32,149 nucleotides of DNA from Gammaproteobacteria bacterium (GTDB lineage: Bacteria > Pseudomonadota > Gammaproteobacteria > Steroidobacterales > Steroidobacteraceae). The notes under the pieces were generated by a model that saw only the letters and a program-made list of their open reading frames with translations, was not told where the DNA came from and ran no database searches. The position numbers and the translations under genes are program-made. Positions 3,244 to 28,955 of the stretch are shown one piece after another. The number at the start of each line of letters is the position of its first letter. The first letter of the stretch is position 1. The DNA is taken from positions 1-32,149 of the forward strand of contig RGWK01000004.1 in NCBI GenBank assembly GCA_010029775.1, read 5' to 3'.

Positions 3244-4317
3244 ATGACACGTCGCAACACCATTGCCGCGCTACTGCTCAGCGGTTGCGGGTCGGCGCTG
3301 ATCGCTGGCCCTGCGTCCGCGCCGCCGACCCCTGTGGGGACCTCGCCCGTTGCCGGCTACACGGAGGCGCTCGATCGCGGCTGGCTGGAGGCTGTCATCA
3401 CGGTGCGGCAGCCAGAAGCCGTACTGCAGTTGGCCGAGCAGGTCGCCGGTTGGCAGATTGAAGCCCTGCCCGCGGCTGACACGGCTGCAGGGGCCGCCGC
3501 CAGCGCGGCGCGCGAGTGGCGCGTCGGCGATGCTTCCGGTCAACCGGGGGTGCTGCGGGTGATCGAGGCACGCGCATCGGCTGCAGGAACCTCCGCACGG
3601 TCCGTGCGCGCCTCGGCTCAACCCTGGGATACGGGCGGACACTTCAGCGTGATGACGCGTTCCAATGATGCCGAGGGTCGCTGGCGAAAGGCTGAATCGC
3701 TCGGTTGGGGCGCCTGGAACGCGCCGGTGGAACTGGATTTCGCAGGGGTGCGGCTCGCCAATGTCATCTTGCGCGGGCCCGAGGGTGTCAACGTCTCTAT
3801 CTATGAACGACGCGCGCCACGGTTGCCCGATGCGCCGGATCTGCGTGGGCTGCGTCGTCCGTTCAATGCGATGCAGATCGTGCGCGACCCGGCTGCCGCT
3901 CGGCGCTTTTATGTAGACATTTTGAAATTCGAGGTCCTGAACGAGGGGCGTTATCGCGGTGCGCCCGGTGTCGCCAACAATTTCGGCATGCCGGCCAACC
4001 TCGCAGGCGAGGTCGTGCTCGATTACATGATCGTGGCGCCGGTCAAGAACGGACCCACGCAAATTGAGGTGGTGCGATTCAATGGTATCGAGGGGCGTGC
4101 CTTGCCGACCGATCCGGCACCTACGCTCGGCATCACGGCGCTGCGCTTTCCGGTGAGCCGTCTCGCACTTATCGAGGAGCGGCTGCGCGCGGCGAACTGG
4201 CCGCTGCTGCAAGAAGCGACCGTACGGCAACTGGCGCCGTACGGTCGCGTGCGTTCGCTGAGTGTGAGCTCGCCTGAGGGTGCGGTTCTCGAGTTCTTCG
4301 AACTCAGCGCCCCATGA
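3244..4317 (+). CDS. VOC (glyoxalase/dioxygenase) superfamily protein with N-terminal signal peptide
   Basis: N-terminus MTRRNTIAALLLSGCGSALIAGPASA looks like a signal peptide. FNAMQIVRDPAAARRFYVDILKFEVLNEG and SVSSPEGAVLEFFEL are VOC-like. Confidence 0.75.
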   Translation: MTRRNTIAALLLSGCGSALIAGPASAPPTPVGTSPVAGYTEALDRGWLEAVITVRQPEAVLQLAEQVAGWQIEALPAADTAAGAAASAAREWRVGDASGQPGVLRVIEARASAAGTSARSVRASAQPWDTGGHFSVMTRSNDAEGRWRKAESLGWGAWNAPVELDFAGVRLANVILRGPEGVNVSIYERRAPRLPDAPDLRGLRRPFNAMQIVRDPAAARRFYVDILKFEVLNEGRYRGAPGVANNFGMPANLAGEVVLDYMIVAPVKNGPTQIEVVRFNGIEGRALPTDPAPTLGITALRFPVSRLALIEERLRAANWPLLQEATVRQLAPYGRVRSLSVSSPEGAVLEFFELSAP

Positions 4318-5239
4318 TGGGCTGCCCCGGCCCGTACTTGGCCATGTACTCGGCGAAGTCGATGCGCGGTTTTGTCCACGACTTCAGATCAAAGATTTCC
4401 GGTGTTTTCTTTTCGAGCGCCAAGCGGGCACCGCGCGGCAGATCGTCGAGGCTGCGCAGCTTCGTGCCGAGGCCTTTGCCCCAGGTGCGCCCCGGTGTTT
4501 TGCCCATGCCGAGCCAGGGGTGAAAGCTGACCAGGTTCTGGAACTGCACCGTCGACAGGGCACTCGATTTGCCAGGATCCTGGATGTCGCGTAGGTCAGC
4601 GGCAAAAAAGTAATGCGAGTCCCAGTAGAACATGGGGCCGCCGGCTTCCTTCGGCCACTTGTCTTCTTTGAACGGATTAGGGAACGAAAAGGACGACTGG
4701 TTGGGTGCGAGCACCTTGCCGGCGATCACGTCGATGCGCATGTCCTTGGGTTTGAGAGTCGCCTCAGGTCCGGTGACGATGCCGTCGGGACCGATTTCCA
4801 CCGAAAGCGGGCCGCCGGCGAATTGCCAGATCTCACGCTTCTCGCCGGTGACGGGATTGACCCAATGATCGACGAGCTCATCGGTGTCGAAGGCGGTGTA
4901 GGCGCCCACCTCGCGCACCAGGCACTTGTAGTTGCCGTTCGGCAGCGGAGACCACGATCCCGCGGCGAGGTTCTGCATGGTCAGCATGGGCTTCAGATTG
5001 CCGTCATTGAGCCACAGGTACAGGTGCAGTCGTGTGAAGGTGTAGACCGTCTCTTCGGCAATCGAGCCCTTGAGTTTGGCGAGCAGGCGGGCCCGCGCTT
5101 TGGGGTCCTCCAGTTGCAGTGCCGACACTCCACTCGATGTGGCAGCCACGGCAGGCGAGATCATCGAGGCGGCCATCGATCCGCCTATGGCGACCGAGGC
5201 GCCGAGTACTGAGCGACGCGAAATACCCATGTCCGACAT
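4304..5239 (-). CDS. DUF1838 family protein with Tat-like signal
   Basis: Start MSDMGISRRSVLGASVAIGGS at 5239 with a GAGGGGG-type RBS upstream. VDHWVNPVTGEKREIWQFAGGP and HPWLGMGKTPG match DUF1838-type motifs. Confidence 0.82.
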   Translation of the reverse strand: MSDMGISRRSVLGASVAIGGSMAASMISPAVAATSSGVSALQLEDPKARARLLAKLKGSIAEETVYTFTRLHLYLWLNDGNLKPMLTMQNLAAGSWSPLPNGNYKCLVREVGAYTAFDTDELVDHWVNPVTGEKREIWQFAGGPLSVEIGPDGIVTGPEATLKPKDMRIDVIAGKVLAPNQSSFSFPNPFKEDKWPKEAGGPMFYWDSHYFFAADLRDIQDPGKSSALSTVQFQNLVSFHPWLGMGKTPGRTWGKGLGTKLRSLDDLPRGARLALEKKTPEIFDLKSWTKPRIDFAEYMAKYGPGQPIMGR

Positions 5240-5337
5240 GTGAACCCCCTCGAAAAATGAGCCCTGAACATAACGCAAGCCGATGCGTCTTGTCCTTGGC
5301 GACGTTACCCTGTCCTCCTGTTGCTCAAGGGGGTCAA

Positions 5338-6213
5338 ATGAGCGAAGCCACTGCATGGTCCAGACGTGAGGCCTTGGCCGGCCTCGGGCTGCTCGCGGTG
5401 TCGGGCGGCATGGCGCACGCGGCGGGTTCTGCAGCGTCAAGCGCACCGGCTGCTTCAGAGCCGTCAATCGTGCCTGCGGAGGTCTTCGCGGACTTCATGC
5501 GGCTGCGCACTTCGCCGGAGGGTAGGCCCGTGCTTTGGGTGTATTCCGGTGTGCTGGTCGTCAAGCCCGAGGGCGAAGTGGCGCGGACGCTGGCGCGCAT
5601 CGAGGGCTTGAGTCGCTCGTTTGCGGTCGCGCAGCCTGACGGCAGTTATCTCTGGACGCTCGATGAGGCCGGCTATTACTGCGATCCGCAGACGGGTGAA
5701 GTCGCCTCCTCCCTGTTCAATCCTTTCATCGGCCAAAACGTGGTGCCGAAACACTATCGCTCGCCGCAGACGCTGCGCTTTAGCCGCAACGGAATTATCC
5801 CCGGTCGCGAACTGCCACCCGGCATCGACTTTCGCGGCGAAATCACGCGCCTCGGGGAGGTCGCGGGAACCGTGGCTTTAACCGAAGATTTGTACGTGCG
5901 CATGGGCGCTACGGCAGCGACGGCGGATCGCCCGGCTCGTCCCGTGCGCTTCGCCAACTCGCTTGCGACCTTCACGACGTTACGGCGCAACCTGCAGCGC
6001 CCTGCCAACGAGTGGGTCGACTGCCAGTTCAACTACACGACCCTCAACACGTTCGTAGATTGGTTGCAGATGGGCGGTCGCGCGGGCGTGCAGGACATGC
6101 GACTCGTCGGCATCAAGTGTCGACTCGAGGATCGCGAGGCAGTACCGAGCAGTTTGCGCGCGCGCATCGAGCGCGAACATCCGGATTTGCTCAAGGGGAG
6201 TGAGCGCACATGA
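5338..6213 (+). CDS. DUF1838 family protein with Tat-like signal
   Basis: MSEATAWSRREALAGLGLLAVSGGMAHAAG start at 5338 after an AAGGGGG RBS. CDPQTGEVASSLFNPFIGQNVVPKHY and FVDWLQMGGRAG are DUF1838-like. Confidence 0.83.
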   Translation: MSEATAWSRREALAGLGLLAVSGGMAHAAGSAASSAPAASEPSIVPAEVFADFMRLRTSPEGRPVLWVYSGVLVVKPEGEVARTLARIEGLSRSFAVAQPDGSYLWTLDEAGYYCDPQTGEVASSLFNPFIGQNVVPKHYRSPQTLRFSRNGIIPGRELPPGIDFRGEITRLGEVAGTVALTEDLYVRMGATAATADRPARPVRFANSLATFTTLRRNLQRPANEWVDCQFNYTTLNTFVDWLQMGGRAGVQDMRLVGIKCRLEDREAVPSSLRARIEREHPDLLKGSERT

Positions 6214-7160
6214 TCGATCGACGCAGCCTCTTGCAAGGCGTGGGCTTCGCTGCGCTATTGCAGTCACCGGTGCTGGCCGAGGCGGCCGCTATGGTCGCCT
6301 CCGGGGGCGTGCCCGGCGCTGCGCCGGGTGCGCTTGATCTGCGCACCGCGCAGGGAAACGTGCGGGCAATGGCCAAGATGTCCGCCACGCTCGCTGCCGA
6401 TGGACACAAGCATGGCTGGTACAGCGGCGTGCTGATGGGTGTGGTGCCCGGGCAGGCGGTGCGCGAGCTCGTGGGCGTCATCGGCATGAGCACGCAGCGG
6501 CTGCGCGCGGTTCCGGAGCAGGGGGGTTATCAGCTGTTGCAGAAGGAGTGCGGCTTCTTCACCGATCTCGGTACCGGTGCCGTGCTCGATCGATGGCTTA
6601 ACCCCTACACCAACGAGTACGTTGAGCCGTTCCACATCGCCAATCCCGCGGTGAACCGCTGGATACTGCCGGTGGTCAAGGAGGAACGGTTCTATGATCG
6701 CGTGCAGAACGACGCGCCTGTGGAGCGACCCTTCGTGTTGCCGTGGAAGCGCGCGGGGGATCGCGTCATGCTTGAGCAACGCACCCACTTTTGGGCCAAC
6801 AACCCGCTGGATCCTGCAGTCTGGAAGCGGGAGAGCAGCGGGCCACGCATCCAGGTCTCCGATTGCATGAGTTACAACGCGCGGTACGATGATCTCGTTG
6901 ATCCGCGGCTCGACAGCGTGGAGTACTCGGGACATTGGGTGCACGTGCGACCGTGGCAGCCGTGGATGCTGATGGGCGCGCATCCGGGGCATTGCCTCTA
7001 TAGCGCGATGACCGGCAGCGCGCTGCGTGCCGAGAACGTGCCGGCCCAGATCCTCGGCATCGTGCGCGAGCGTCTGCCGGAGTTCCTGCAGCCGCCCACC
7101 GAGGTGCGCAAGAGCGAGCCCAGCATGATTCGCTTCATGCGGGAGCGCAAACCCTCGTGA
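6210..7160 (+). CDS. DUF1838 family protein
   Basis: ATGA overlap with the previous stop. MIDRRSLLQGVGFAALLQSPVLAEA signal; VLDRWLNPYTNEYVEPFHIANP and HVRPWQPWMLMGAHPGHCLYSAMTG. Confidence 0.87.
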   Translation: MIDRRSLLQGVGFAALLQSPVLAEAAAMVASGGVPGAAPGALDLRTAQGNVRAMAKMSATLAADGHKHGWYSGVLMGVVPGQAVRELVGVIGMSTQRLRAVPEQGGYQLLQKECGFFTDLGTGAVLDRWLNPYTNEYVEPFHIANPAVNRWILPVVKEERFYDRVQNDAPVERPFVLPWKRAGDRVMLEQRTHFWANNPLDPAVWKRESSGPRIQVSDCMSYNARYDDLVDPRLDSVEYSGHWVHVRPWQPWMLMGAHPGHCLYSAMTGSALRAENVPAQILGIVRERLPEFLQPPTEVRKSEPSMIRFMRERKPS

Positions 7161-7724
7161 GCGGTCCCCTGCATCGGCATTACCACGGCAAGATGCTGTA
7201 TCTCACCGATGGCATCGGCGAGATGGGCCGCGAGTTTTTCAATAGACGGACAGTTGCTCGGGACCTCGTGGTTCAACTTCACGACCCGTACCGCCCAGTG
7301 CGAGGGACTCACCTCGCGCGACGGGCGGGTCTCGCAGCGCTTCGAACTCGACGAAGACATCGAGTCCTTTGGCACCCACGCCTTGCACGGCGATGCCTGG
7401 GTCGTGGCCCGTTTGCGTCGATATACCGGACCAATGGAGCGATTTGCGCTCGCGACCTTCACCAATTCGACGCGTGCCAATGGCGCCTCCGGGCCGACAC
7501 TGATCCGTCTCGGTGAGGGCTATTCGCGCATCCACGATCTCGGCGAAGAGACCCTCGCGGTGCCGGCCGGGCAGTTTATTACCCGGCATATCCGCATCGA
7601 TGTGCCCGGTGTCGATGATTTCGAGGTTTGGGCGGGCGGCGAGGATTGCTTGCCGGTGCAACTGCGATCAAAGAATTTACGCCAGACCTATGTGCTGGTG
7701 GATGTGCAGGGAGAGTGGCGATGA
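7157..7724 (+). pseudogene. Small DUF3108-like/beta-rich protein interrupted by an apparent frameshift at the T5 run 7235-7239
   Basis: GTG start at 7157 overlaps the previous stop (GTGA). Frame A reads MSGPLHRHYHGKMLYLTDGIGEMGREFF and then becomes Arg-rich nonsense. Frame B resumes immediately as SIDGQLLGTSWFNFTTRTAQCEGLTSRDGRVSQRFELDEDIES...VDVQGEWR, ending at 7724 with ATGA onto the next gene. Removing one T gives one 188-aa ORF. Confidence 0.65.
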
Positions 7725-8602
7725 CCAGGGTACGCCTCAATAGACGTGACGTAGTGGGCGGTGCGATCGGCGCGGTAGCGGCGGGCGCGGTGGGTTCAGC
7801 AGCCCAGGCATCAGTCGATGCGGCGCGCTCGGCCTCGCCGTCTACGTCGACGCCCGATCCGCGCATGCTGTACCGCAAGCTGCACCTTCGCACCGACGAT
7901 GGGCTGCTGTTCTGGTGGCTGCAGGGGCCGAAGATCGGGCAGGTGGGCACGACCTTGACGCCGCTTTATACGAGCAGCATCGGCACCGTGCAGCGCGTGC
8001 GTCACCGGGAAGATGGCGGTTTCGACGTCACGCAACTGGAACTGATCATTATCTGCGATTTGCAGACGGGGGAGCCCCTGACGCAATGGCGAAACCCCTA
8101 CACGGACGAAATGATCCCTATCCGTTTTGCGCCGGTCGGTCCTACCGTGGTGCGCTACCGAGCCGACAATTCGCGTGTCTTGCCGACCGAAATTGGGGGC
8201 ACGCCGTTGCAGGCCACCGCGACCATGCATGCGCCGGTGATTGTCGGTGACGATGTGTTTCAACGCGATGAGTCGGTGGCGCGCGTGTTTACGCCCGGTC
8301 GTGCTACGCCCTTCGAGGTCAACGATATCGCCGTTTATCACGGCAGTCTCGCCAATCTGACCGACCCGGCGGTAACGGTGGGTGAGGCGACGGTATTCTT
8401 CGCCGAAGTCACAGGCTGGCAACGCTGGATGAACATGGGTGATCGTGCGGGCAATTTGACCTCACGCCTGACCGGCCGCAAGGTTAGGCGCTACGCGGAG
8501 CTACCGTCGCGTTGGCGCGAGCAGCTTGCGGCCGTCGCGCCGAAGATTGCCGCCGATCCCATTGCTGCGCTCGATGTCGCCGCAGCCCGTTTCGATCGAT
8601 GA
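7721..8602 (+). CDS. DUF1838 family protein with Tat-like signal
   Basis: ATGA overlap start. MTRVRLNRRDVVGGAIGAVAAGAVGSAAQA; LTQWRNPYTDEMIPIRFAPVG and GWQRWMNMGDRAGNLTSRLTG. Confidence 0.88.
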   Translation: MTRVRLNRRDVVGGAIGAVAAGAVGSAAQASVDAARSASPSTSTPDPRMLYRKLHLRTDDGLLFWWLQGPKIGQVGTTLTPLYTSSIGTVQRVRHREDGGFDVTQLELIIICDLQTGEPLTQWRNPYTDEMIPIRFAPVGPTVVRYRADNSRVLPTEIGGTPLQATATMHAPVIVGDDVFQRDESVARVFTPGRATPFEVNDIAVYHGSLANLTDPAVTVGEATVFFAEVTGWQRWMNMGDRAGNLTSRLTGRKVRRYAELPSRWREQLAAVAPKIAADPIAALDVAAARFDR

Positions 8603-8609
8603 GGTGACC

Positions 8610-9527
8610 ATGTTGCGTAATGTGCTCATATCTTTGTTGCTGCTGGGTCTGGCCCCGCTTGCATCGGTTGCCGCGGAGCCCGCTGCGCCCAGCGCGTCGG
8701 CAGGATTCGTCTTTCGCTACGTGACGGCCACCGATGGCGTGCCGCTCAACGTGGTGGAGACCGGTAACCCTACGGGGTCCGCCATCATTTTTCTGCACGG
8801 CTACACGCAGAGTTACCTCAGTTGGCATCCGCAACTCGACGATGCGGCGCTCCGTGCCAAGTATCGACTGATTGCCGTAGACCTGCGTGGACACGGTGCA
8901 TCGGGCAAGCCCTGGGATAAGGCCGCCTACGCAGGTCATTTGCCCTGGGCCCGTGACGTACGTCGCGTCGTCGAGGAACTCGGTGTGACGCGGCCGATGC
9001 TCGTCGGTTGGTCTTTTGGCGGTTTCGTCGCCATGGACTATGTTCGTGAATACGGCGAGGCCGCAGTCGCCGGGGTGATGATGACGGGCAGTCACGGCGG
9101 TCTGCTGTCGCGCCCCGTCGGTCAACCGCCTGCATTCACCGGTGATCTTGACCTCGCCATCGACGGTGCGCGTACGTTCATGAAGATGATGTCCGTGGAG
9201 CCGCCCGCGCCCGCCACCGTCGATCGCGGCACCTATGCCAATGTCATGATGCCGGCGTATGTGCGTAATGCCATGTGGGGCAAGCGACTCGATAACACCG
9301 ATCTCACGCCGCGCCTGCAGTTACCGGTGCTGATGATTCTCGGCCGGCAGGATCTGAGTTTACCGGCCGACGCGATTGCGAGCTCGTTGGCGTCACGATC
9401 CAACATCACCGTGCGGATCTTCGAGCAGACGGGGCACTCGGCGTTCATTGAGCACCCGGCGCGATTCAATCAGGAGCTCGCGACCTTCGTCGGGCGGACA
9501 GACAGCGTCAAAGGGAGTCAGGAATGA
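8610..9527 (+). CDS. Alpha/beta-hydrolase with signal peptide
   Basis: MLRNVLISLLLLGLAPLASVAAEP signal; AIIFLHGYTQSYLSW, VGWSFGGFVAMD (GxSxG), ILGRQDLSLPAD, TGHSAFIEHP. Confidence 0.92.
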   Translation: MLRNVLISLLLLGLAPLASVAAEPAAPSASAGFVFRYVTATDGVPLNVVETGNPTGSAIIFLHGYTQSYLSWHPQLDDAALRAKYRLIAVDLRGHGASGKPWDKAAYAGHLPWARDVRRVVEELGVTRPMLVGWSFGGFVAMDYVREYGEAAVAGVMMTGSHGGLLSRPVGQPPAFTGDLDLAIDGARTFMKMMSVEPPAPATVDRGTYANVMMPAYVRNAMWGKRLDNTDLTPRLQLPVLMILGRQDLSLPADAIASSLASRSNITVRIFEQTGHSAFIEHPARFNQELATFVGRTDSVKGSQE

Positions 9528-11384: not shown

Positions 11385-12889
11385 GTGTGCCGCCCGCAAC
11401 GGACCGACGAGGCCTGCTGCGGGGCCTGCTGGCCGGTTCCGTGTTGGGCGCCTCGGCACCGACGCGCAGCGAAGAAAGGGGTACCGCACCTGCGGCATTG
11501 CCGGATCGGCGCTGCATTATCGATGCGGGCTGGGCACTGCTGCACGATGGCCAAGGCTTTGCGCTGCAGCGTGACGTGTCGATCGTGATCGATGGCGATC
11601 GCATTGCGGCCGTGCATGCCGGCGCGCTGCGCTCCATGTTGCCGCGGGTGGACGCGCGGACTCATCTGGTGCTTCCCGGGTTTATCTCCGGGCACACCCA
11701 CGTGGCCGGAGGCACGGTTACGCGCGGCATCTTCGAAGGTCGCCGCTCCTACGCGCGGGCGCTCGAACTCGCCGAGACGCTGGATGATGATGCCCTCGAT
11801 GCCTTAACCGCCCTGAACCTCGCCGAACTGCTGCGTTCGGGCTGCACCACGCAACTCGACATGGCCCTGTCGTTACGACAGATGCAAAGTTACGTGCGTG
11901 TGGCTCGGCGCTGGGGGGTGCGTGCGTACCCCTCGGCCATGGTGCCGGGCGTCGGGCGATTGTTTCCGATCTGGCAACGCGAGAGCGATTCGGTATTGCG
12001 TGATTCGGTGCCGGATACTCTGGCGGAGATCGCAGCCGCGCTGAGTTACGCGCGCCAGATCAACGGCGCCGACGATGGCTTGATCCGCCCGCAAATGGCG
12101 ATGCATGCGAGCGACACACATACGCCAGAGACCATTGCCGCAACGCTCGCTGCGGCTGCTGAACTCGGTCACGGGTTGCATTTGCACCTCTGCCAGGGCG
12201 CACGCGAGGTCGAGGCCGTGCAGCGTTTGTGGCAGCAGCGGCCGGTGCAGTGGCTGGACTCGCTCGGCGTGTTTGCGCAGCGCGTATTCGCGGCGCACAT
12301 GTCGAGTGCGGACCCGGCGGTGGATGCGCCGCTGCTGCGTCGCGGCACGTTCACCTATTGCACCTGTCCCTCAGCAGGCGGTGCGAGCGGGTTCACTCAA
12401 CCGTGGCCGGAGATGCTCGCGGCGGGCGTGAACACGAATATCGGCATCGACACCCATTCGAACGACTACGTCGAGAATCTCAAGCTCGCGGTGCTCAAAG
12501 GCGAGGCGCGCTGGTCCTTGCTGCGTCGCAGTTCACCCGTGCCACTGCAACGGCCGAGCATCCAGCGCGCTGTGGAGGCGGCGACGGTCGATGCCGCCCG
12601 CGGTCTTGGCCGTGACGATATCGGACGCATTGCAGTCGGAGCGAAAGCGGATCTCGTCTCGATCGATGTGTCCGGACTGCTGGCGGGCACGGGCGCATTG
12701 CCGCCCGAGCCGCTCTACCATCTGCTCTATGCCAATGGCCTGATGGTGCGGCACGTGTTGATTGATGGCGCTTTCAAGGTGTTCGACGGAGTGCTGCGGG
12801 TCGATGACGAAGCGACTCTGCTGGCGCAAGGCGGAGCGGTGGTGCAAAAAATCTGGGCGCAACTCGACGAAGAGGGGTTTTTCAAATGA
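11381..12889 (+). CDS. Amidohydrolase (cytosine deaminase/chlorohydrolase-like) with Tat-like signal
   Basis: GTG start at 11381 in frame with the track ORF and overlapping the previous stop (GTGA). DRRGLLRGLLAGSVLGASA; LVLPGFISGHTHVAGG; GLHLHLCQG; NIGIDTHSNDY; IAVGAKADLVSID. Confidence 0.88.
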   Translation: MSVPPATDRRGLLRGLLAGSVLGASAPTRSEERGTAPAALPDRRCIIDAGWALLHDGQGFALQRDVSIVIDGDRIAAVHAGALRSMLPRVDARTHLVLPGFISGHTHVAGGTVTRGIFEGRRSYARALELAETLDDDALDALTALNLAELLRSGCTTQLDMALSLRQMQSYVRVARRWGVRAYPSAMVPGVGRLFPIWQRESDSVLRDSVPDTLAEIAAALSYARQINGADDGLIRPQMAMHASDTHTPETIAATLAAAAELGHGLHLHLCQGAREVEAVQRLWQQRPVQWLDSLGVFAQRVFAAHMSSADPAVDAPLLRRGTFTYCTCPSAGGASGFTQPWPEMLAAGVNTNIGIDTHSNDYVENLKLAVLKGEARWSLLRRSSPVPLQRPSIQRAVEAATVDAARGLGRDDIGRIAVGAKADLVSIDVSGLLAGTGALPPEPLYHLLYANGLMVRHVLIDGAFKVFDGVLRVDDEATLLAQGGAVVQKIWAQLDEEGFFK

Positions 12890-14367
12890 CCGTGTTCAAG
12901 CTGGGTGTGGCGGGTGTGATGGGCGTACTGATCGGCGTGTCGTCGTCGATGGCGCAGGCGATCGAGTGGCAGACCTTCGATCCGTCGCCCTATTCGCAGA
13001 GCGTGACCGACTGCGACCGTGAGGCCGCACACCCGGACGACCCGAACAAAGTGGTCCCGGGTCGCACCTCGCGCGAGATGAATCTCGACACGGCCATTCG
13101 TGTCTGTCGGGCAGATCTCGCCAAAGATCCGAACAACCCGCGCATCGGCTATCAGCTCGCGCGTTCACTCACCTACGCGGGAAAGGTTACCGAAGCGTTG
13201 CCCTTCATCGAGCGTGCCGCGGCACAGAAATATCCGCAGGCCATGTTCGTCGTCGGCTATCTGTATCTCGAGGGCTCCTACGCCTCACCCAAGAATCCTT
13301 GCCGCGCCGCGCAATTGATCCGCGAGTCGGCAATCTACGGACGACTGGCCGGGCTGCTCGGCTACCCGTCGTACGTGTTGAACGGCCGCTTTGCCGGTTG
13401 CGGGCTGCAGGTCGATGCGCAGGAACTGCGCGGCGGAGGATCGGAAATGAAAGGATCGGACATGAACGACAAGCGAGTATCGCGGCGTGACGTATTGCAG
13501 ACAGCCGCGGTTGCTGGGCTCGCGCCGCTTATTGCAGCCGCCCCCGCGGAGGCCAACCTGCCCCGGCCGGGCGGTGAGCGCGGTTATGCCCGCGGTCCGC
13601 ACGGTCAGGTGCACTACCACGACAATCAGGGCGCGAGTGCGATGCCCTTGCTGCTGCTGCATCAGGCACCGATGTCCCATCGGCAATTCGACGCGGTGTA
13701 CGGTCCTTTGAAGCAACGCGGGGTTCGTGCGATCGGCATCGACATGCCGGGCTTCGGCATGTCGGACCCGACGCCGTTCGTGCCTAAGGTCGCCGATTGG
13801 GCAAGCTCGATCGCGGCGGTACTCGACCATCTGCGCATTCGGCAGGCCGATGTGCTCGGTCATCACACCGGTGCGCTGCTCGCCACCGAGGTCGCGCTGC
13901 AGTATCCAGCGCGCGTGCGGCGGGTGATTCTGAATGGCCCGTTCCCCATTACCGAGTCCGAGCGGGCGATGTTTCTTGCCGATCTGCAGAAGACGGAAAT
14001 CGACTTCGAGTACCGCGCGGATGGCACTCACCTGTCGGAGAGTTTCGTCAAGCGCTCGAAGTTCTACGGCCCTGATGCCGACCCGAAGCACATCACGCGC
14101 ATTCAGGTTGAAAAATTCATGGGTTACGGACCGTTCTGGTACGGCCACAACGCCGCCTACCGCTACGATCACGCCAGCACGCTGAAGTTGTTGAAGCACC
14201 CGACGCTGATACTCACCAACACCGGGGACATGGCCTACCCGATGGCGCAACGTGCCCGGCAGATGCGCCCCGACATGGCCTACGTCGAGCTGCAGGGTGG
14301 CAACGTCGACATCGTCGATCAGGCGACCGAGCCCTGGAGCGATGCCGTCAAGGCCTTCGTCGCCTAG
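12886..14367 (+). CDS. In-frame fusion: N-terminal TPR/Sel1-like secreted domain (about 12886-13446) plus Tat-type alpha/beta-hydrolase fold domain (internal start candidates 13447 or 13462)
   Basis: Single 493-aa ORF. The N-half has signal MTVFKLGVAGVMGVLIGVSSSMAQA and repeats YQLARSLTYAGKVTEALPFIERAAAQKYPQAMFVVGYLYLEGSY. A second signal MNDKRVSRRDVLQTAAVAGLAPLIAAAPAEA follows mid-protein, then LLLLHQAPMSHRQFD, GIDMPGFGMSDP and VLGHHTGALLATE. Confidence 0.85.
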   Translation: MTVFKLGVAGVMGVLIGVSSSMAQAIEWQTFDPSPYSQSVTDCDREAAHPDDPNKVVPGRTSREMNLDTAIRVCRADLAKDPNNPRIGYQLARSLTYAGKVTEALPFIERAAAQKYPQAMFVVGYLYLEGSYASPKNPCRAAQLIRESAIYGRLAGLLGYPSYVLNGRFAGCGLQVDAQELRGGGSEMKGSDMNDKRVSRRDVLQTAAVAGLAPLIAAAPAEANLPRPGGERGYARGPHGQVHYHDNQGASAMPLLLLHQAPMSHRQFDAVYGPLKQRGVRAIGIDMPGFGMSDPTPFVPKVADWASSIAAVLDHLRIRQADVLGHHTGALLATEVALQYPARVRRVILNGPFPITESERAMFLADLQKTEIDFEYRADGTHLSESFVKRSKFYGPDADPKHITRIQVEKFMGYGPFWYGHNAAYRYDHASTLKLLKHPTLILTNTGDMAYPMAQRARQMRPDMAYVELQGGNVDIVDQATEPWSDAVKAFVA

Positions 14368-15813: not shown

Positions 15814-16893
15814 ATGAAACGATGGCAGCAGGCGATCACCGCGGTGTTGGTGGGCGTAGTGATGGCCGTGTCCGGACTGCGGGCCGCAGCCGGGCCTGCT
15901 CACGACCCGTCGCGACAGGAACTTGAAGCGATTCTGGCCGATCTCATTGCCTGGTTGCCGGGAGGTTGGGACTCCTATCCTCAAGTGCATTTTGAGCGGC
16001 GCTATCGCGTTCCCGCCGAGGGCGAGCACGAGCACTGGCACCATATCTTCGAACGCATCGATGCGCCGCAGATTGGCGAGGTCGTTTTCTACGGCCAGAT
16101 CAATCCGGGCGGGCGTGATGCGCCGATGATGCATCGCTCGCAAATTCTCTACAAAGTCTGGATCGACGAGCAGCGCGGCGTGGTTGTGGTCAACGGCCAG
16201 GGACCCGCTGATCCTGACGCGTTTGTCGATCTGCACGAGCGCCCGGAGTTATGGTCCAAGGTTCGCATGCGCGATCCGGCGAAGATCAACTGCGATTTCA
16301 TCTGGCGCCGCGATGGCGAGCAGATCGTCGGTGTGCTCGATGGCAAGACAGCGGCCGGGCGCACCCAGGGGCCGGGTACCTGCACGTACATGGTCAACAG
16401 CACCGATGTGCGTTTCATTGCTGACGCCGAGTGGGTGCTCTCGCCCGAGGTGTTCTGGGACTACGATCTCAATGAAATGGCTGGCCATCAGTTCATCGGG
16501 CGCAAGGATAAAACCCACATCAAGATGTACCGGGCACGCGGTTACGACTGTCGCGTGCGCGATGCCGAGGGCGAGCGTCGCTGGCAGGCCTACGATCGTG
16601 GCGCGACTTTGGCCGTGAAAACCTCAGTCGGGCCGCGCCAGTTGATGCTGTTGCGCGCGCCGATGCCCGATGCCGCCGGTCGCGGTATGCACGACAAGTT
16701 GCGCTTGCTGCTGCAGAAACCCGGCGAGGACGCGCCGCTGTACGAAACCGAGTCCGAGCCGCGCGCTGCATCGATCGCACTCGAGCGCGACGGTGTGAAC
16801 GTGCAGTGCGCGCTTGCGCCCTCGCTGCCGCGCATGCACAAGGCAGATGCCGCAGTCGCATCCGCGGGACACAGCACGTCAGCGGGGCATTGA
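15814..16893 (+). CDS. CpcT/CpeT-like (chromophore lyase fold) protein with signal peptide
   Basis: MKRWQQAITAVLVGVVMAVSGLRAAAG signal from 15814. LIAWLPGGWDSYPQVHFERRYR and CTYMVNSTDVRFIADAEWVLSPEVFWDYDLNEMAGHQFIGRKDKTHIKMYR resemble CpcT/CpeT. Confidence 0.62.
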   Translation: MKRWQQAITAVLVGVVMAVSGLRAAAGPAHDPSRQELEAILADLIAWLPGGWDSYPQVHFERRYRVPAEGEHEHWHHIFERIDAPQIGEVVFYGQINPGGRDAPMMHRSQILYKVWIDEQRGVVVVNGQGPADPDAFVDLHERPELWSKVRMRDPAKINCDFIWRRDGEQIVGVLDGKTAAGRTQGPGTCTYMVNSTDVRFIADAEWVLSPEVFWDYDLNEMAGHQFIGRKDKTHIKMYRARGYDCRVRDAEGERRWQAYDRGATLAVKTSVGPRQLMLLRAPMPDAAGRGMHDKLRLLLQKPGEDAPLYETESEPRAASIALERDGVNVQCALAPSLPRMHKADAAVASAGHSTSAGH

Positions 16894-17823: not shown

Positions 17824-18651
17824 TCAGGGTGCGGCGGGTTGCTGCAAGCGCCGGATTTCGGCGAGATCACGCGGCGGTTCGCGCCACAATGCTGCCTCGC
17901 TTTGCACGTACTCGCGGATGCTTTGTGGCAAGTCCTCGAACCGATCGACCCGCCACGACACCATATGCATCACGCCCTTGCCGAGTCCCGCAGGCAGATC
18001 ACCGAAGCGCAACCAGCTGATCTGATACGGATGCCGCAGTCCCTTCGCCGCCGATTGATCGAAGAAATCGTAATGCTCGAACGCCTGACTGCGTGTGCCG
18101 TCTCGCAGTGGGAAGTCGAGAAACAGCGGCGCGGAGAAGGCGAGCGTTCCGCCGATGCGCCGCGCCATGATGTCCGTACCCGGACCGATGCGTTGAACCC
18201 GCGCTCCTGCGCCTTGCTCCACCCAGCTCTCGACGCTGCGGTCCCGCAATTCGTAGGTGATGTACTGGTAGGGGTAACTGATCGGCGGCAGGGGTTTGCC
18301 TTGCCACTCGCGCAGGATCGCGTTGCTCTGCAAGTCGCGGTACACGAAGGTCTTGCGCGAGAGCTGATGTGCCTTGCTCGCGGTGGACTGGGTGGTGTCG
18401 AGCCGGGCCGCGTCGATGCCCTCCATGCGCATCAGCGGCTGGCCGCTTGGCGAGCTGTAGACCGTGCCGACCGCATACCAGTACACCGGGGTGCCCGAGC
18501 CGACGCGCATCTGTACCCATTGGCGAAACACCTCGGGGTCGAAGCCACGATCGACGTTGGCGGGCTGCGCGGAACCGACCGGCATCAGACCGCCGGCACA
18601 GCACAGCATGGCGGCCCAGAGAATGGCCACACGGGAACGGGATTGGCGCAT
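17824..18651 (-). CDS. DUF1838-like exported protein
   Basis: Start MRQSRSRVAILWAAMLCCAGGLMPVGSAQ at 18651 with AGGAG upstream. FVYRDLQSNAILREWQGKPLPPISYPYQYITYEL and PYQISWLRFGDLPAGLGKGVMHMVSWRVDRFEDLPQSIREYVQ. Confidence 0.75.
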   Translation of the reverse strand: MRQSRSRVAILWAAMLCCAGGLMPVGSAQPANVDRGFDPEVFRQWVQMRVGSGTPVYWYAVGTVYSSPSGQPLMRMEGIDAARLDTTQSTASKAHQLSRKTFVYRDLQSNAILREWQGKPLPPISYPYQYITYELRDRSVESWVEQGAGARVQRIGPGTDIMARRIGGTLAFSAPLFLDFPLRDGTRSQAFEHYDFFDQSAAKGLRHPYQISWLRFGDLPAGLGKGVMHMVSWRVDRFEDLPQSIREYVQSEAALWREPPRDLAEIRRLQQPAAP

Positions 18652-20921: not shown

Positions 20922-21866
20922 TCAGTGCTCGATGAGCCAGTGGAAAACGCCGTGCGGTGCGCGAATGATCGCAGTGCGACGCACGCTGCCTGCGATGTCG
21001 ACCGACTGCGGTTCACCCGCGATCTCGATGCCGGCGCTGCGGCATCGCGCCACGAGTGACTCGAGTCCGCTGACCCGCAGCCGCACACCGATGATACCGC
21101 GATTGGGCGGCCGAGCGCGCTCGCGCAAGTCGGCATAGCTGCCCTCGGGCAGCCCGTAGTGGATGATGCCGAGCATCACGTCTTCGACGACACGGCCGTA
21201 ATTATTGGCCCGGATATGCAGCGTTTGGCTGACACCGACCATGCGCGAGAAGGACTCGCTCGCGAACTCGTAGCGAAAGCCGAGCGGCACGCCCAGCACC
21301 TCTTCGTAGAACTGCCGCACCGGCTCGAAGTCGCTGACCGGGCCCGAACTGCTCTGCACTTCGCTGAAGACTCGATCGGTCAGTGTGACGAACTGTGCGG
21401 CATCGACGTTTTGGGGCTCGATCGCCGCGATCATCACCCCATCCGGACCCTTGGCATGGGCTTCGAGAAAGCGCGACCCGTCCGGTAAATCGACGTGGGC
21501 CCCTTCCGAGACCAGCTCGAACCCATGGGCTCGCAGCCGCGCCACCGCCGCAGGACGATCTGCAGTAAAGAAATCGATCATCTTTAGGGCGTTGCAGGCC
21601 ACGCCCACTCCGCCTTCGCGGATGACGACGGCAGAACCCGGTGAGAACTGTACGAGCCATACGCCGAGTTCCGAGCCTGGCGTGACGAGGCACATCAAGC
21701 GAGCGGTTTGTCCTGCCACGCCAAACAGGACTTGAGTGGCCTTGGCATCGAGCGCGGCGTCCGCCACGACCTGCATGCCGATGACGTCGGCGAACAATTC
21801 GCGCTGGCGGGGCAGATCCGCCGTGCTGATGATGGGTCCGTCGATGGATTCGACGCGGCCGCTCAA
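20922..21866 (-). CDS. VOC-family protein (two VOC modules), likely TTG start
   Basis: Track ORF 20922..22103, but the upstream part is frame shadow of 21863-22669. TTG at 21866 overlaps the upstream gene stop (TTGA). GPIISTADLPRQRELFADVIGMQVV, FLEAHAKGPDGVMIAAIE, FEPVRQFYEEVLGVPLGFRYEF, APHGVFHWLIEH. Confidence 0.8.
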   Translation of the reverse strand: MSGRVESIDGPIISTADLPRQRELFADVIGMQVVADAALDAKATQVLFGVAGQTARLMCLVTPGSELGVWLVQFSPGSAVVIREGGVGVACNALKMIDFFTADRPAAVARLRAHGFELVSEGAHVDLPDGSRFLEAHAKGPDGVMIAAIEPQNVDAAQFVTLTDRVFSEVQSSSGPVSDFEPVRQFYEEVLGVPLGFRYEFASESFSRMVGVSQTLHIRANNYGRVVEDVMLGIIHYGLPEGSYADLRERARPPNRGIIGVRLRVSGLESLVARCRSAGIEIAGEPQSVDIAGSVRRTAIIRAPHGVFHWLIEH

Positions 21867-22669
21867 GCGAGTGGGGCTCGAGCGAGCCGCTTGCCGGCGA
21901 GATAACTCATCAGCACCGTGAGCACCACGGCGGCGCCGAAGTAGAGCTCCTTGCCCTCCGACCAGGCGTCGAGGTTGGGCAGCGTCAGTTTGGCGAGGGC
22001 AAACGCAGCGATCAGCAGGCTGACGCCACCGACTGCGAGACTCATGACTCTTGAGGCGATGCGGGCCAGTTCGTCGGCGCGGGCGATGAGTCGCGAGATC
22101 CACACGCCGTTGATGCCGTCAGTGACCAGCATGCCGGCGGTGAACAATGCGCCGAGCATCACGGCGTGGCCGAGGCCACCGAATTGCTGCGCAGTAAGCG
22201 AGAACAGGGCCGCTTGACTGATGGTGTCGAACGACAGGGCAAACAGCGCACCCACGAAGGCGATCAGTCCGGGCGAACCGGCACGTCCGAGACGACCGAG
22301 CAGGCGCGCTTTCAAGCCGACAGGCGCGACGATTTCATCGGCCGGTGCGGTGATAGCGGCATGTACGTTGGCGATACCAAGGGCGGCAAGGAAAGTAATG
22401 GAGATCCAGACGCCGCTCGTTTGCAGCCACGCGGGTGTCTGCCACTGGCCGGCCACGAGGCTGACGATCACCGCAATCGCCATGACCACCACGCCGTGAC
22501 CCAAAGAAAACAGCGCCCCGCAATAGGGTGCGAAGGCCTTGCGGCTGCGGGCGTTGACCCGCGTCAGGCCGTCGATGGTGGCGAGGTGATCAGCGTCGAA
22601 ACCATGCTTCACGCCGAGCAGGAAAACGACTGCAGCCAGTGCAGTCCAACTGGTGGGTAATGCATCCAT
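21863..22669 (-). CDS. NiCoT-like nickel/cobalt transporter family protein
   Basis: LGVKHGFDADHLATIDGLTR, FSLGHGVVVMAIAV and ALFALSFDTISQAALF correspond to NiCoT signature regions; multi-pass hydrophobic. Start MDALPTS at 22669 preferred over 22693. Confidence 0.82.
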   Translation of the reverse strand: MDALPTSWTALAAVVFLLGVKHGFDADHLATIDGLTRVNARSRKAFAPYCGALFSLGHGVVVMAIAVIVSLVAGQWQTPAWLQTSGVWISITFLAALGIANVHAAITAPADEIVAPVGLKARLLGRLGRAGSPGLIAFVGALFALSFDTISQAALFSLTAQQFGGLGHAVMLGALFTAGMLVTDGINGVWISRLIARADELARIASRVMSLAVGGVSLLIAAFALAKLTLPNLDAWSEGKELYFGAAVVLTVLMSYLAGKRLARAPLA

Positions 22670-22764
22670 GGATTGAAAGGGTAGGCAGTCCACAGGGTGG
22701 CAGACAAGGGAGGTGCGGACGGTGCCCGTACCGCGGTAGGCTGTGGTTCATTGGGGGTACGGGC

Positions 22765-25521
22765 ATGCGGCAATCGCACATCGGCAAGGCTGGACGAACG
22801 TGGAGCGCGGGCATCGCGGCAGCGCTGCTTGTAGTGTCCTGCGGCGGTGGCGGCGGTGGTGGATCGTCGAGCAGCTCGGCTGCGCCACCGACCTCGGGGG
22901 GGTCCACCACGCCGGTGACCGTCTCCCCTATTGAGCAATCGCAGGGCGCGTTGCTGCAGCGGCCGGTGTTCCAGTGCGGGACGTCGGCCGACAACGTCAC
23001 CGCAGACACGGCGGCCAACAGCGTGACCCTGTTCGAGAGTGGTCCCGTTCGGCCTTTGGCGCTGTCTGCTGACGGCCAGCGTCTGTATGTGGCGAACGCC
23101 CCAGCGCACTGCTTGGAAATTTACGCTGTTGAGACGGATGCCCTGCGTCTCGTCAGCACCGTGTCGGTCGGTCTCGAACCAGTGGCCGTGGCCGAGCGTA
23201 ACGCCAACGAGGTCTGGGTGGTCAATCACCTCTCCGACTCGGTGAGCGTGGTGCGTCTCGACGGCACGCCGCGCGTGCTGCGCACGCTGCAGGTCGGCGA
23301 TGAGCCGAGGGATGTGGTGTTTGCCGGAACTAATCGTGACCGCGCGTTCATCACCGCCGCCTTCCGCGGTCAGAATCGGCCGGGTTTCACGTCGTCTTCC
23401 CTGACTACGCCCGCCACCGGACGCGCGGACGTGTGGGTGTTCGATGCCTCGCAACTCGATGAATCGTTGAACGGCAAGCCGGTGACGACGCTGACGCTGC
23501 CGGCTGATGTGCCGCGGGCGCTGGCCGTCAGCAACGATGGCCGCAGCGTGTACGCCGCGGTGTTCATGTCGGGCAATCGCAGTACCGTGCTGCACCGCGA
23601 TGCCTTGAATACCCCAAAGCCAGGACTTTCGACCAGCACGGACGGCGTGCAGGCTCCGGGCACGGGGCTGATCGTTCGCTACGACGGCACGGCCTGGCGC
23701 GACGAGGCCCGCAATGACTGGTCCTCGCGCGTGAAGTTCACGCTGCCCGATGAGGATCTGTTCGTCATCGATGCCGCTGCTGCAACACCCACCATCACGC
23801 AGCGCGTCAGTGGTCTCGGTACGGTGCTCTTCAACATGGCGGTCGCTCCGGATGGGCGTCTCGTGGTGAGCAATACCGAGTCGTTCAACGAGGTGCGATT
23901 TGAGGGTTCCGGGCGGCGCGGCAACAGTACGGTGCGCGGTCGCATCGCCGAGAGTCGCCTGACGTGGGTCACGCCGGGCTCGGCGTCGGTGTCGGCCGTG
24001 CATCTGAACAAGCACGTGAACTTCGCGCTTCCGCAAGGACAGAGCTTGCCCGCTGCAGAGAAGGCGCGCAGTTTGTCGCAGCCGACGGCGCTCGCCTTCA
24101 GTCCGAGCGGCGACACGCTGTACGTGGCCGCCTTTGGTTCAGCGAAGGTGGCGGCGCTGCCGACGGCGAGCCTGACAGCGAGTGGATTCGAGCCGGATGC
24201 GAGTCGCCACATTGCGGTGCCTGCGGGGCCTGCGGGCCTCGCGCTGAATGCGTCGGGTTCACGGCTCTATGTCTATTCACGCATTGCGCACAGCGTCAGC
24301 ATCGTCGATACCACACAGCGCAGCGTGCTCGCGACGCGCAGTCTCTTTTCGCCCGAGAGCACGGCGGTGAAGACCGGTCGGCAATTTCTGTACGACGCGA
24401 ACTTGAGCTCGGCCAACGGCTCGGTGTCCTGCGCGAGTTGCCATGTGTTCGGAGATCTCGATCATCTGGCCTGGGACCTCGGCAATCCCGACGATGCGAT
24501 GCAGCTGAATCCGAACGCCTACGTCGCCAACAGTCCGCGCACGACGCCGCGTTTCCATCCGCTTAAGGGCCCCATGACCACCCAAACCCTGCGCGGCATG
24601 AGCGGGCATGGGCCGCTGCACTGGCGCGGTGATCGCACGGGCAGCAATCGGCAGATCGTTCGTGGCGCTTTGGAGACACTCGAAGAGGCCGCTTTCAAAG
24701 AATTCAATGGAGCCTTCGTCGGTCTGCTCGGGCGCGAGACCGTGCTGACGCCTGCGCAAATGCAGGCGTTCACCGATTTCGCCATGCGCCTCGCGATGCC
24801 ACCGAATCCGATCCGTGCGCTGGACGGCTCGCTGACGGCGGATGAAGCCGCCGGGCGCAACATCTACATGAACGTGCCGACCACACTGCTCGGTAGTTGC
24901 GACAACTGCCATCGGCTGCGCCCCGCGGAGGGCAAGTTCGGCACCGGTGGGCTGATGTCCTTCGAAGGGGGGCGGATCAGCGAGAATTTCAAGGTGCCGC
25001 AACTGCGCAACGTCTACACCAAGGCTGGAATGTTCGGCTTCAGTGCTGACAGCGGTGGCAGCACCGGGGCGCAGATTCGGGGCTTCGGTTTTAGTAACGA
25101 CGGTTCGCTCGACACGCTCGATAATTTCTTCCGCGATCCGGTGTTCTTCTTTCCGGCCCCTGCAGACCAGAGCCGACGGCAGGTGATCGCCTTTGTGCTG
25201 GCGTTCGACAGCGACCTTGCGCCCGTAGTGGGGCAGCAGGTGACCTGGCGCCCGGGCTCGCCCGATGCAGTGGAGTCGCGGCTCGCCTTGCTACGCGGTC
25301 AGGCGACGGCGCCGGGCGGCGCGACCTGCGATCTGGTGGCCCGCGGCAACATCAACGGCGTGTCCTACAGCGCATTGCTGCAGGCCGATGGCACGTGGTC
25401 GATGCGCGGCGGTGGCACGCGCAGTGATGCGGCACTCAAGGAATTGGCCAGTGCGGCGCAGCCGCTGACCTTCACGTGCATGCCGCCCGGCAACGGCCGG
25501 CGCGCAGCACTCGATCTGTAG
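22765..25521 (+). CDS. Lipoprotein with YVTN-type beta-propeller and cytochrome-c-peroxidase-like di-haem region
   Basis: MRQSHIGKAGRTWSAGIAAALLVVSCGGGGGGGSSSSSAAPP lipobox and linker from 22765. LYVANAPAHCLEIY and VWVVNHLSDSVSVVRL propeller repeats; haem motifs CASCH and CDNCH. Confidence 0.88.
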   Translation: MRQSHIGKAGRTWSAGIAAALLVVSCGGGGGGGSSSSSAAPPTSGGSTTPVTVSPIEQSQGALLQRPVFQCGTSADNVTADTAANSVTLFESGPVRPLALSADGQRLYVANAPAHCLEIYAVETDALRLVSTVSVGLEPVAVAERNANEVWVVNHLSDSVSVVRLDGTPRVLRTLQVGDEPRDVVFAGTNRDRAFITAAFRGQNRPGFTSSSLTTPATGRADVWVFDASQLDESLNGKPVTTLTLPADVPRALAVSNDGRSVYAAVFMSGNRSTVLHRDALNTPKPGLSTSTDGVQAPGTGLIVRYDGTAWRDEARNDWSSRVKFTLPDEDLFVIDAAAATPTITQRVSGLGTVLFNMAVAPDGRLVVSNTESFNEVRFEGSGRRGNSTVRGRIAESRLTWVTPGSASVSAVHLNKHVNFALPQGQSLPAAEKARSLSQPTALAFSPSGDTLYVAAFGSAKVAALPTASLTASGFEPDASRHIAVPAGPAGLALNASGSRLYVYSRIAHSVSIVDTTQRSVLATRSLFSPESTAVKTGRQFLYDANLSSANGSVSCASCHVFGDLDHLAWDLGNPDDAMQLNPNAYVANSPRTTPRFHPLKGPMTTQTLRGMSGHGPLHWRGDRTGSNRQIVRGALETLEEAAFKEFNGAFVGLLGRETVLTPAQMQAFTDFAMRLAMPPNPIRALDGSLTADEAAGRNIYMNVPTTLLGSCDNCHRLRPAEGKFGTGGLMSFEGGRISENFKVPQLRNVYTKAGMFGFSADSGGSTGAQIRGFGFSNDGSLDTLDNFFRDPVFFFPAPADQSRRQVIAFVLAFDSDLAPVVGQQVTWRPGSPDAVESRLALLRGQATAPGGATCDLVARGNINGVSYSALLQADGTWSMRGGGTRSDAALKELASAAQPLTFTCMPPGNGRRAALDL

Positions 25522-26809: not shown

Positions 26810-28789
26810 ATGAACGTGTTTACCGTGTTGCGTCGTGCCCGGCTTGTGCTCGGGTGGTGTGTTTCGGCTGTGCTGCTGTCGGCGTGTCTGTCGAGCGCGG
26901 GGCCGGAGGCACCGACCATCACCGAACAGCCGAAGGACCGCATCACGTTCATCGGTCAGACGGCGAAGTTCGACTTCGGCGGCTCGGGCAAGCCGCCGTT
27001 CACCTTCCAGTGGTTTCGCAATGGAACGGCCATTTCCGGCGCGACGGCGTCGACCTACACCACGCCGGCGCTGACGGCTGCCGACGATGGCGCGAAGTTC
27101 TCCGTGACCATCACGAATGCCGCCGGCACGGTGACGAGTTCTCAGGCCACGCTGACCGTCAAGCCCGGTCCTTCGATCACCACGCAGCCGGTGTCGACCT
27201 CCGTTACGGCGGGTACGGCAGCGAGTTTCACGGTCGTTGGTGCGGGCGAACAGCTGGCGTATCAGTGGTTCCGTGACGAGGTCGCGATCTCGGGCGCCAC
27301 CACGGCGACCTATTCACTGACCTCGCCGACCGCGGCTGATGATGGCGCGGTATTTGTGGTCTACGTGGTTAATCCGGGCGGTTTCGTTGCCTCCAATCCT
27401 GTGACGCTCACGGTCTCTGCGGCACCGGCTATCGTTGTGCAGCCCGTCAGCCAAACCGTCGTGGCAGGGGACTCGCTTACGCTCGCGGTCAGCGCGACGG
27501 GCGGCAACCTCAAGTACCAATGGAAGCGCAACGGCGCCGACATCGAGGGTGCCACATCGAACGTATACCGACTCGCCGCTGCGGCGGCGGGCGATGACAA
27601 CGCCTCGTTCACCGTCGCCGTCAGCAATGGGCTCGGGGCGGTGACGAGCAGCGCGGCCGTGGTGCGTGTGGTGGCAGGCGCCGTGTCGGCCTTGCCGGTC
27701 GCAGCGGCGCAGGTGGCCGTCTCGAAGCCGGGCTCCGCTTCGGGAAGTTTCACGCTCGTGCGCCGCTCCAACGGCACGCTCGCCAGCTGGGGGTACAACA
27801 CAGACGGGCAGCGCGGTGATGGCACGGTGACTTTGCCGAGCGACACCATCGGCACGGTCACGCTGCCCGCCGGACGCACCGCCCGCCAAATCGCGGTCGG
27901 TGGCTCGCACGCACTCGTGCTGCTCGATAACGGCGACGTGTATGCCTGGGGTCTCAACGATGCCGGGCAGCTCGGGCAGGGCGATGTCGCCACCCGCGCC
28001 GTTCCGGTGAAAGTCACCTTGCCGGCCGCCGCCATTGCCATTGCGGCGGGCCGCGTGCACTCGGTTGCCGTGCTAACTGGCGGGGCCGTGTACACCTGGG
28101 GTGCCAACACTTTCGGGCAATTGGGTGATGGCGGCCGCGAAGCGAAGGCCTCGCCGGTGGCCGTCGTGGGGCTCGACGGCGTGGTCGGCGTGGCGGCGGG
28201 GAAGGATCACACGCTGGCTCTGCGCAGCGATGGAACCGTGCGCGCCTGGGGTGCCAATGCCTCCGGCCAGTTGGGCGATGGCACGTTCAAGCCGAGCCGG
28301 GTGCCGGTGATCGCGGCGTTGTCGGGCATCGCTCGTATCCGCGCGGGTGGTGATCAATCCTTCGCGATCTCGACGCGCCGTGCGCTGTATGCCTGGGGCG
28401 AGAATGGCGATGGGCAGCTCGGGCTGGGATCGGCGCTCGATGCCGGAGTCCCTGCAGGCGTGCTGCGCGATGTGGTGGACGCCGCCACGGCCGATCGCAC
28501 CTCGATTGCTTTGGGTGGTGATGGCCTTGCTCGATCGGCGGGCGCCAACGAATCGGGCTCCTTGGGCGATGGCGGCAGCACGGCGCGCAATACCTTTGGT
28601 GCCGTTGCGGTGCTGAGCACGGGTATCTCCATCGACACCGGCGGCCGCTCGTTCTCGGCAGCCATCGCGGCGGATGGCGCGACCTACACCTGGGGTGACA
28701 ACACGAGCAAGCAGCTGGGCAACACGACCCTCTCTGCCGTGGGTACCTCCACACCTACCGCCGTGCCCTCCTTCGACGCGATTCCGTAA
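26810..28789 (+). CDS. Lipoprotein with three Ig-like domains and an RCC1-type beta-propeller
   Basis: Lipobox VLLSAC. Three Ig-like repeats (FTFQWFRNGTAISGATASTY, LAYQWFRDEVAISGATTATY, LKYQWKRNGADIEGATSNVY). About seven RCC1 units (YAWGLNDAGQLGQGD, YTWGANTFGQLGDGG, RAWGANASGQLGDGT, YAWGENGDGQLGLGS and others). Confidence 0.93.
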   Translation: MNVFTVLRRARLVLGWCVSAVLLSACLSSAGPEAPTITEQPKDRITFIGQTAKFDFGGSGKPPFTFQWFRNGTAISGATASTYTTPALTAADDGAKFSVTITNAAGTVTSSQATLTVKPGPSITTQPVSTSVTAGTAASFTVVGAGEQLAYQWFRDEVAISGATTATYSLTSPTAADDGAVFVVYVVNPGGFVASNPVTLTVSAAPAIVVQPVSQTVVAGDSLTLAVSATGGNLKYQWKRNGADIEGATSNVYRLAAAAAGDDNASFTVAVSNGLGAVTSSAAVVRVVAGAVSALPVAAAQVAVSKPGSASGSFTLVRRSNGTLASWGYNTDGQRGDGTVTLPSDTIGTVTLPAGRTARQIAVGGSHALVLLDNGDVYAWGLNDAGQLGQGDVATRAVPVKVTLPAAAIAIAAGRVHSVAVLTGGAVYTWGANTFGQLGDGGREAKASPVAVVGLDGVVGVAAGKDHTLALRSDGTVRAWGANASGQLGDGTFKPSRVPVIAALSGIARIRAGGDQSFAISTRRALYAWGENGDGQLGLGSALDAGVPAGVLRDVVDAATADRTSIALGGDGLARSAGANESGSLGDGGSTARNTFGAVAVLSTGISIDTGGRSFSAAIAADGATYTWGDNTSKQLGNTTLSAVGTSTPTAVPSFDAIP

Positions 28790-28862: not shown

Positions 28863-28955
28863 TTGCGCCCTTCGGGAGAGGGGTTCCGGGCAATAGCCCG
28901 GTTTCCGCTTGTCCGAGCGGTTTTCAAAGCAAACAACAGGGAAGGATTCAACACC

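Follow-up and report, generated by a model that had tools for sequence, protein, structure and literature searches.

The stretch of DNA analysed here, referred to as the window, comprises 32,149 nucleotides and corresponds to contig C224 in the draft genome (2.75 Mb, 77% complete) of a freshwater bacterium. Four genes of the DUF1838 family (PF08894) lie together in it, accompanied by a hydrolase gene. Gene D (4304–5239, reverse strand; 62.1 bits against PF08894 for the ORF 4304–5467, with a likely start at 5239) is transcribed away from gene B (5338–6213, forward strand; 50.2 bits, in two stretches). On the same strand as gene B follow gene A (6210–7160; 118 bits), gene X (7157–7724), which lacks a Pfam match and is not a DUF1838 gene, gene C (7721–8602; 64.5 bits for the ORF 7628–8602, with a likely start at 7721) and gene H (8610–9527), encoding an exported alpha/beta-hydrolase with a score of 90.7 bits against PF00561 and a GWSFGG nucleophile motif. 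Start and stop codons overlap at positions 6210 (ATGA), 7157 (GTGA), 7721 (ATGA) and 9524 (ATGA), and the overlapping frames appear to be arranged as in a translationally coupled operon. The reading frame of gene X is broken by a 134-base deletion relative to an intact 233-aa ORF in L027 (10945–11643), and the copy in the window is either a pseudogene or an assembly error. Distant relatives of gene X were observed in L062, L066 and L040. A fifth DUF1838 gene, E (17824–18651, reverse strand; 28.5 bits), is the most diverged copy.

The original prediction, made from the DNA alone, placed these five ORFs in one family, and both their coordinates and their assignment proved correct, all of them exceeding the PF08894 gathering cut-off of 25 bits (28.5–118 bits). 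The W[LM].[MF]G box is likewise present in all five, as PWLGMG, DWLQMG, PWMLMG, RWMNMG and SWLRFG. Two further features are shared by A, B, C and D but not by E. The NP landmark is found in the former four, whereas E reads EWQGKPLPP, and the exported N-termini described as Tat- or Sec-like carry a twin-arginine motif in A (DRRSLLQG), B (SRREALAG), C (NRRDVVGG) and D (SRRSVLG), judged by inspection as twin arginines ahead of a hydrophobic stretch, whereas E has no RR motif. Using a simple rule, a Tat motif was detected in 141 of 159 DUF1838 sequences, E not among them. The strong divergence of the five genes was also confirmed, with a best identity of 23–38% to another sampled copy of their own genome, and so was the absence of recent duplication, as A–D are at most 38% identical to any sampled paralogue. 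Recent tandem duplication as the origin of the cluster is ruled out by this low identity. Judging from their low mutual identity, while each of A–D has a reciprocal best match elsewhere, the DUF1838 copies of the source genome are old.

Five copies turned out to be an undercount. A PF08894 profile search of the whole genome returned 23 matching stretches, equivalent to about 18–19 genes distributed over many contigs, and 18 of the 18 own-genome copies that were aligned match PF08894. Within the genus, DUF1838 was detected in 24 of 24 genomes, the source genome included. Thirteen other genera of the family were sampled, of which 12 lack it, and several other families of the order hold 4 to 32 DUF1838 stretches. 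Because only 4 of 399 genomes drawn evenly from the phylum contain it, with one copy each, compared with 1–45 matched stretches (in which one gene may count twice) per genome of the genus, DUF1838 can be described as a rare family with extreme local expansion. A genome of the same genus (G011, L149–L151; 4.3 Mb) contains 45 DUF1838 stretches; its contig C61 is the counterpart of L035, which bears the label Steroidobacteraceae Prado182.

The five genes of the window represent different subtypes. A belongs to the canonical subtype, and its conserved polar motif is complete. In the diverged subtypes B, C, D and E, the central motif that marks canonical members is missing. Across 93 canonical members, E113, N131, E136, N145, P202, W205, R207, E208, W243, P248, W249, P251, W252, M255 and G260 (numbering of A) are invariant, whereas 60 other members retain mainly E113, D119, N131-P132, W252, M255 and G260, a contrast that is inflated and partly built in, as likeness to A was the basis on which canonical members were selected. 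The canonical-subtype residues N145, N149, W205, R207 and E208 are present as a set in A and not in B, C, D or E. Polar residues retained in A comprise E113, N145, N149, H193, R207, E208 and E or D at 218, whereas B, C and D preserve the core (E113, N131-P132, W252, M255 and G260) and have largely lost the polar motif. Among 66 evaluable loci, 21 have a canonical and a divergent member side by side, involving several different divergent types, and in Novosphingobium sp. P6W such a pair is located next to genes for a TonB receptor and a serine hydrolase. DUF1838 clusters also exist in Aliiglaciecola and Parahaliea maris, which like Novosphingobium sp. P6W are culturable; none of these three clusters consists of the four genes A–D. 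The recurring pairing of canonical and divergent members points to B, C and D as putative partner subunits of A, which is our preferred, though unproven, reading.

In AlphaFold2 models, A (pLDDT 88.1, pTM 0.82) has about eight long strands arranged in a sheet, together with an N-terminal helix and C-terminal helices, a predicted fold that we read as a barrel, and in B (pLDDT 88.2) these elements follow one another in the same order. Foldseek searches of the PDB gave no good match for A, with LmcA and PsbO at a TM of about 0.3, and nothing below an E-value of 0.001 for B. A structure search among viral models (BFVD) yielded no convincing relative, and no significant match to a solved member of known beta-barrel superfamilies (lipocalin-like, PsbO, LmcA) was obtained. 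Sequence searches found no solved relative of DUF1838, and the alignment of B matched PDB profiles mainly over the N-terminal signal region or insignificantly. The earlier statement that DUF1838 has no assigned function agrees with our literature search, which retrieved no function and one passing mention. This concerns ArtU, a protein of 248 aa annotated as DUF1838 in the NRPS cluster for aurantimycin of Streptomyces aurantiacus, for which the paper gives no function (PMC5031334); what it shares with the genes studied here is this annotation.

The five DUF1838 genes were originally considered the core of any undescribed system here, with hydrolases, a desaturase and a TonB receptor as genes that might co-occur with them. 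Conserved co-occurrence was indeed found in other genomes, for the four genes A–D together with H, while E falls outside. The complete five-gene order outside the genus is known from a single MAG contig, labelled Alphaproteobacteria (L036), where the genes are arranged as TonB receptor-A-B-H-C-D. There, all four DUF1838 genes are reciprocal best matches of those in the window (A 45.8%, B 32.6%, C 29.8% and D 46.7% identity), and H has a counterpart with 39.6% identity. The match of C is the weakest: its 102 bits in L036 stand little above the scores of C to two paralogues from the source genome (96.3 bits to the one in L019). Partial versions of this arrangement are found as TonB receptor-A-B-H in Sandarakinorhabdus (L037) and in a member of Sphingomonadales (L038), and as A-B-H in Lysobacterales (L040). 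The proposed link to a hydrolase holds for H, which is associated with DUF1838 genes across classes: it adjoins B in L036, L037, L038 and L040, lies upstream of B in L032, and adjoins D in two genomes of the genus (G006 and G019).

A TonB receptor is linked to the module in L036, L037, L038, G006 and G019, and none of that type is present in the window. The receptor encoded in the window (28863–31931), which had been suggested as a partner, is not detectably similar to those that adjoin A in relatives. The A-linked type, at 64% identity or more, occurs in four of the eight genomes of the genus that carry A, B and C and in one non-carrier, indicating partial co-inheritance. The suggested desaturase was seen only in the copy of the sister species, and both it and an amidohydrolase, likewise seen in no other copy, were discarded as conserved partners.

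Within the genus, orthologues of A, B and C occupy the identical 8 of 24 genomes (Fisher test, 1.4e-6 per pair), using identity limits of at least 52%, 38% and 60%, respectively, which were placed by visual inspection where the lists of matches show a clear break. Orthologues of D were found in 9 of the 24, namely seven of the eight A/B/C carriers plus two other genomes (p = 7e-4); the carrier without D, G012, has a genome that is 83% complete. G006 and G019 carry the set in pieces on separate contigs (TonB receptor-A; H-D-B; C), with every part retained. On an rpoB tree of 20 genomes, which includes five of the eight carriers, the presence of A, B and C requires 4–5 state changes, and thus a single clade does not account for their distribution. 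Phylogenetic inertia as the cause of the co-occurrence finds no support in this tree. Taken with the arrangement in other organisms, A, B, C, D and H are well supported as a conserved module.

E behaves differently. It is present in 6 of 8 carriers versus 6 of 16 non-carriers of A, B and C (p = 0.19), and its sole relative among the loci compared adjoins a canonical DUF1838 gene elsewhere (L063). A single system made up of all five copies is thus ruled out by the distribution of E, a gene that is not co-inherited and that also lacks the NP and Tat motifs. E is a family member outside the module.

Elsewhere, the genes that recur around canonical members encode TonB receptors (a raw count of 27 of 78 loci), alpha/beta-hydrolases, beta-lactamase-fold hydrolases, VOC proteins, cupins, family 5 extracellular solute-binding proteins, aldehyde dehydrogenases and FAD oxidases. 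Such a neighbourhood appears to be that of a catabolic context. VOC proteins, hydrolases and a solute-binding protein are likewise found in the window.

We propose, with a probability of roughly 50%, that D, B, A, C and H constitute one functional periplasmic module for the uptake and processing of a small, probably hydrophobic compound, in which A is catalytic and B, C and D are its partners; the chemistry and physical assembly of this module are what we infer. All five proteins would be exported to the periplasm via Tat or Sec. In relatives, a dedicated outer-membrane TonB-dependent receptor would feed the module of A with a small organic compound, possibly an ester or a lactone given the presence of hydrolase H. 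A would act as the catalytic barrel, as its retained polar residues suggest, and H would hydrolyse the compound. B, C and D would be obligate, non-redundant partners, serving either as subunits joined to A before Tat export or as carriers of substrate and product. The remaining DUF1838 copies in the genome may form parallel modules for other compounds.

It is also possible, although somewhat unlikely, that each of the four DUF1838 proteins is an enzyme in its own right within a single pathway, acting on successive intermediates or on a substrate series without any assembly. Their strong divergence, the retention of the unlinked genes in G006 and G019 and the mostly catabolic neighbours of canonical members (hydrolases, VOC proteins, an oxygenase and aldehyde dehydrogenase) would fit this explanation. 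Two observations argue against it: most of the polar residues shared by all canonical members are missing from B, C and D, which would be surprising if these were active enzymes carrying out the same chemistry, and A and B are nearly always adjacent when they share a contig.

More doubtful is a role of DUF1838 proteins as non-catalytic periplasmic barrels that bind ligands and pass hydrophobic molecules from TonB receptors to hydrolases. The predicted beta-barrel, the frequency of TonB-receptor homologues in the neighbourhoods surveyed and the weak fold resemblances of A, which are with barrels or with proteins that carry ligands (LmcA and a haemophore among them), are consistent with this role, but all fold matches have a TM of about 0.3 or less and do not reflect homology, and conserved residues of the kind seen here (E, N, H and R) more typically belong to an active site. 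Finally, that the cluster is a by-product of general DUF1838 expansion, with functionally unrelated paralogues gathered in rich genomes, is very improbable: copy number does track genome size (Spearman 0.69), the A/B/C carriers are also DUF1838-rich genomes, and E and other copies have profiles of their own, but draws weighted by copy number seldom yield the same 8 genomes (P = 4e-4 to 0.015 per matching profile, depending on the weight), G003 has 20 matched stretches and lacks A, B and C, and the same four genes are found together in another class (L036).

Returning to the reading of a periplasmic module with A as its catalytic barrel, in relatives the gene for a TonB receptor precedes those for exported proteins and a hydrolase, an arrangement that resembles PUL-like loci, where uptake through a TonB receptor is combined with periplasmic enzymes. 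The module differs from them in that predicted DUF1838 barrels replace glycosidases, no SusD-like protein was identified, and the copy in the window has no adjacent receptor. A second parallel is offered by SAR202, where paralogue expansions have been proposed to broaden the range of oxidised organic compounds (PMC6946804). The likeness lies in the lineage-specific expansion of a single family, whereas the families expanded in SAR202 are known catabolic enzymes, e.g. the enolase superfamily, and the DUF1838 proteins studied here are exported, with paralogues in linked sets. As a tentative extension, which we regard as rather speculative, DUF1838 might represent a new class of periplasmic enzymes in which one catalytic barrel is assembled with several diverged ones; such hetero-assemblies would be loaded via dedicated TonB receptors and would have multiplied in this lineage to deal with many compounds.

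DUF1838 is thus rare in the phylum, although a single lineage can hold dozens of copies, and four strongly dissimilar ones have stayed together over long distances. The conserved set offers a first concrete handle on the family, as it indicates which proteins, hydrolase and receptor to study together. If the proposed function is true, it would represent an unrecognised route for processing dissolved organic compounds in freshwater and marine bacteria.

Several other genes of the window were also noted. The 493-aa ORF at 12886–14367 corresponds to two adjacent genes of L027 (16841–17485 and 17485–18387), combining a TPR-like N-terminal part with a Tat-type alpha/beta-hydrolase, and two relatives of the hydrolase part, with 61% and 56% identity, are located close to DUF1838 genes, in Parahaliea maris (L077) and in L044. 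An exported protein of about 350 aa (15814–16893), intact in L027, has no Pfam or NCBIfam match and is, we presume, reminiscent of CpcT-like proteins. A NicO-type nickel/cobalt transporter is encoded at 21866–22693, and a similar-looking gene lies immediately beside H, D and B in G006 and G019. Further along, the window encodes a beta-propeller/di-haem peroxidase-like lipoprotein (22639–25521) and a protein resembling Ig-like domains plus RCC1-type repeats (26810–28789).
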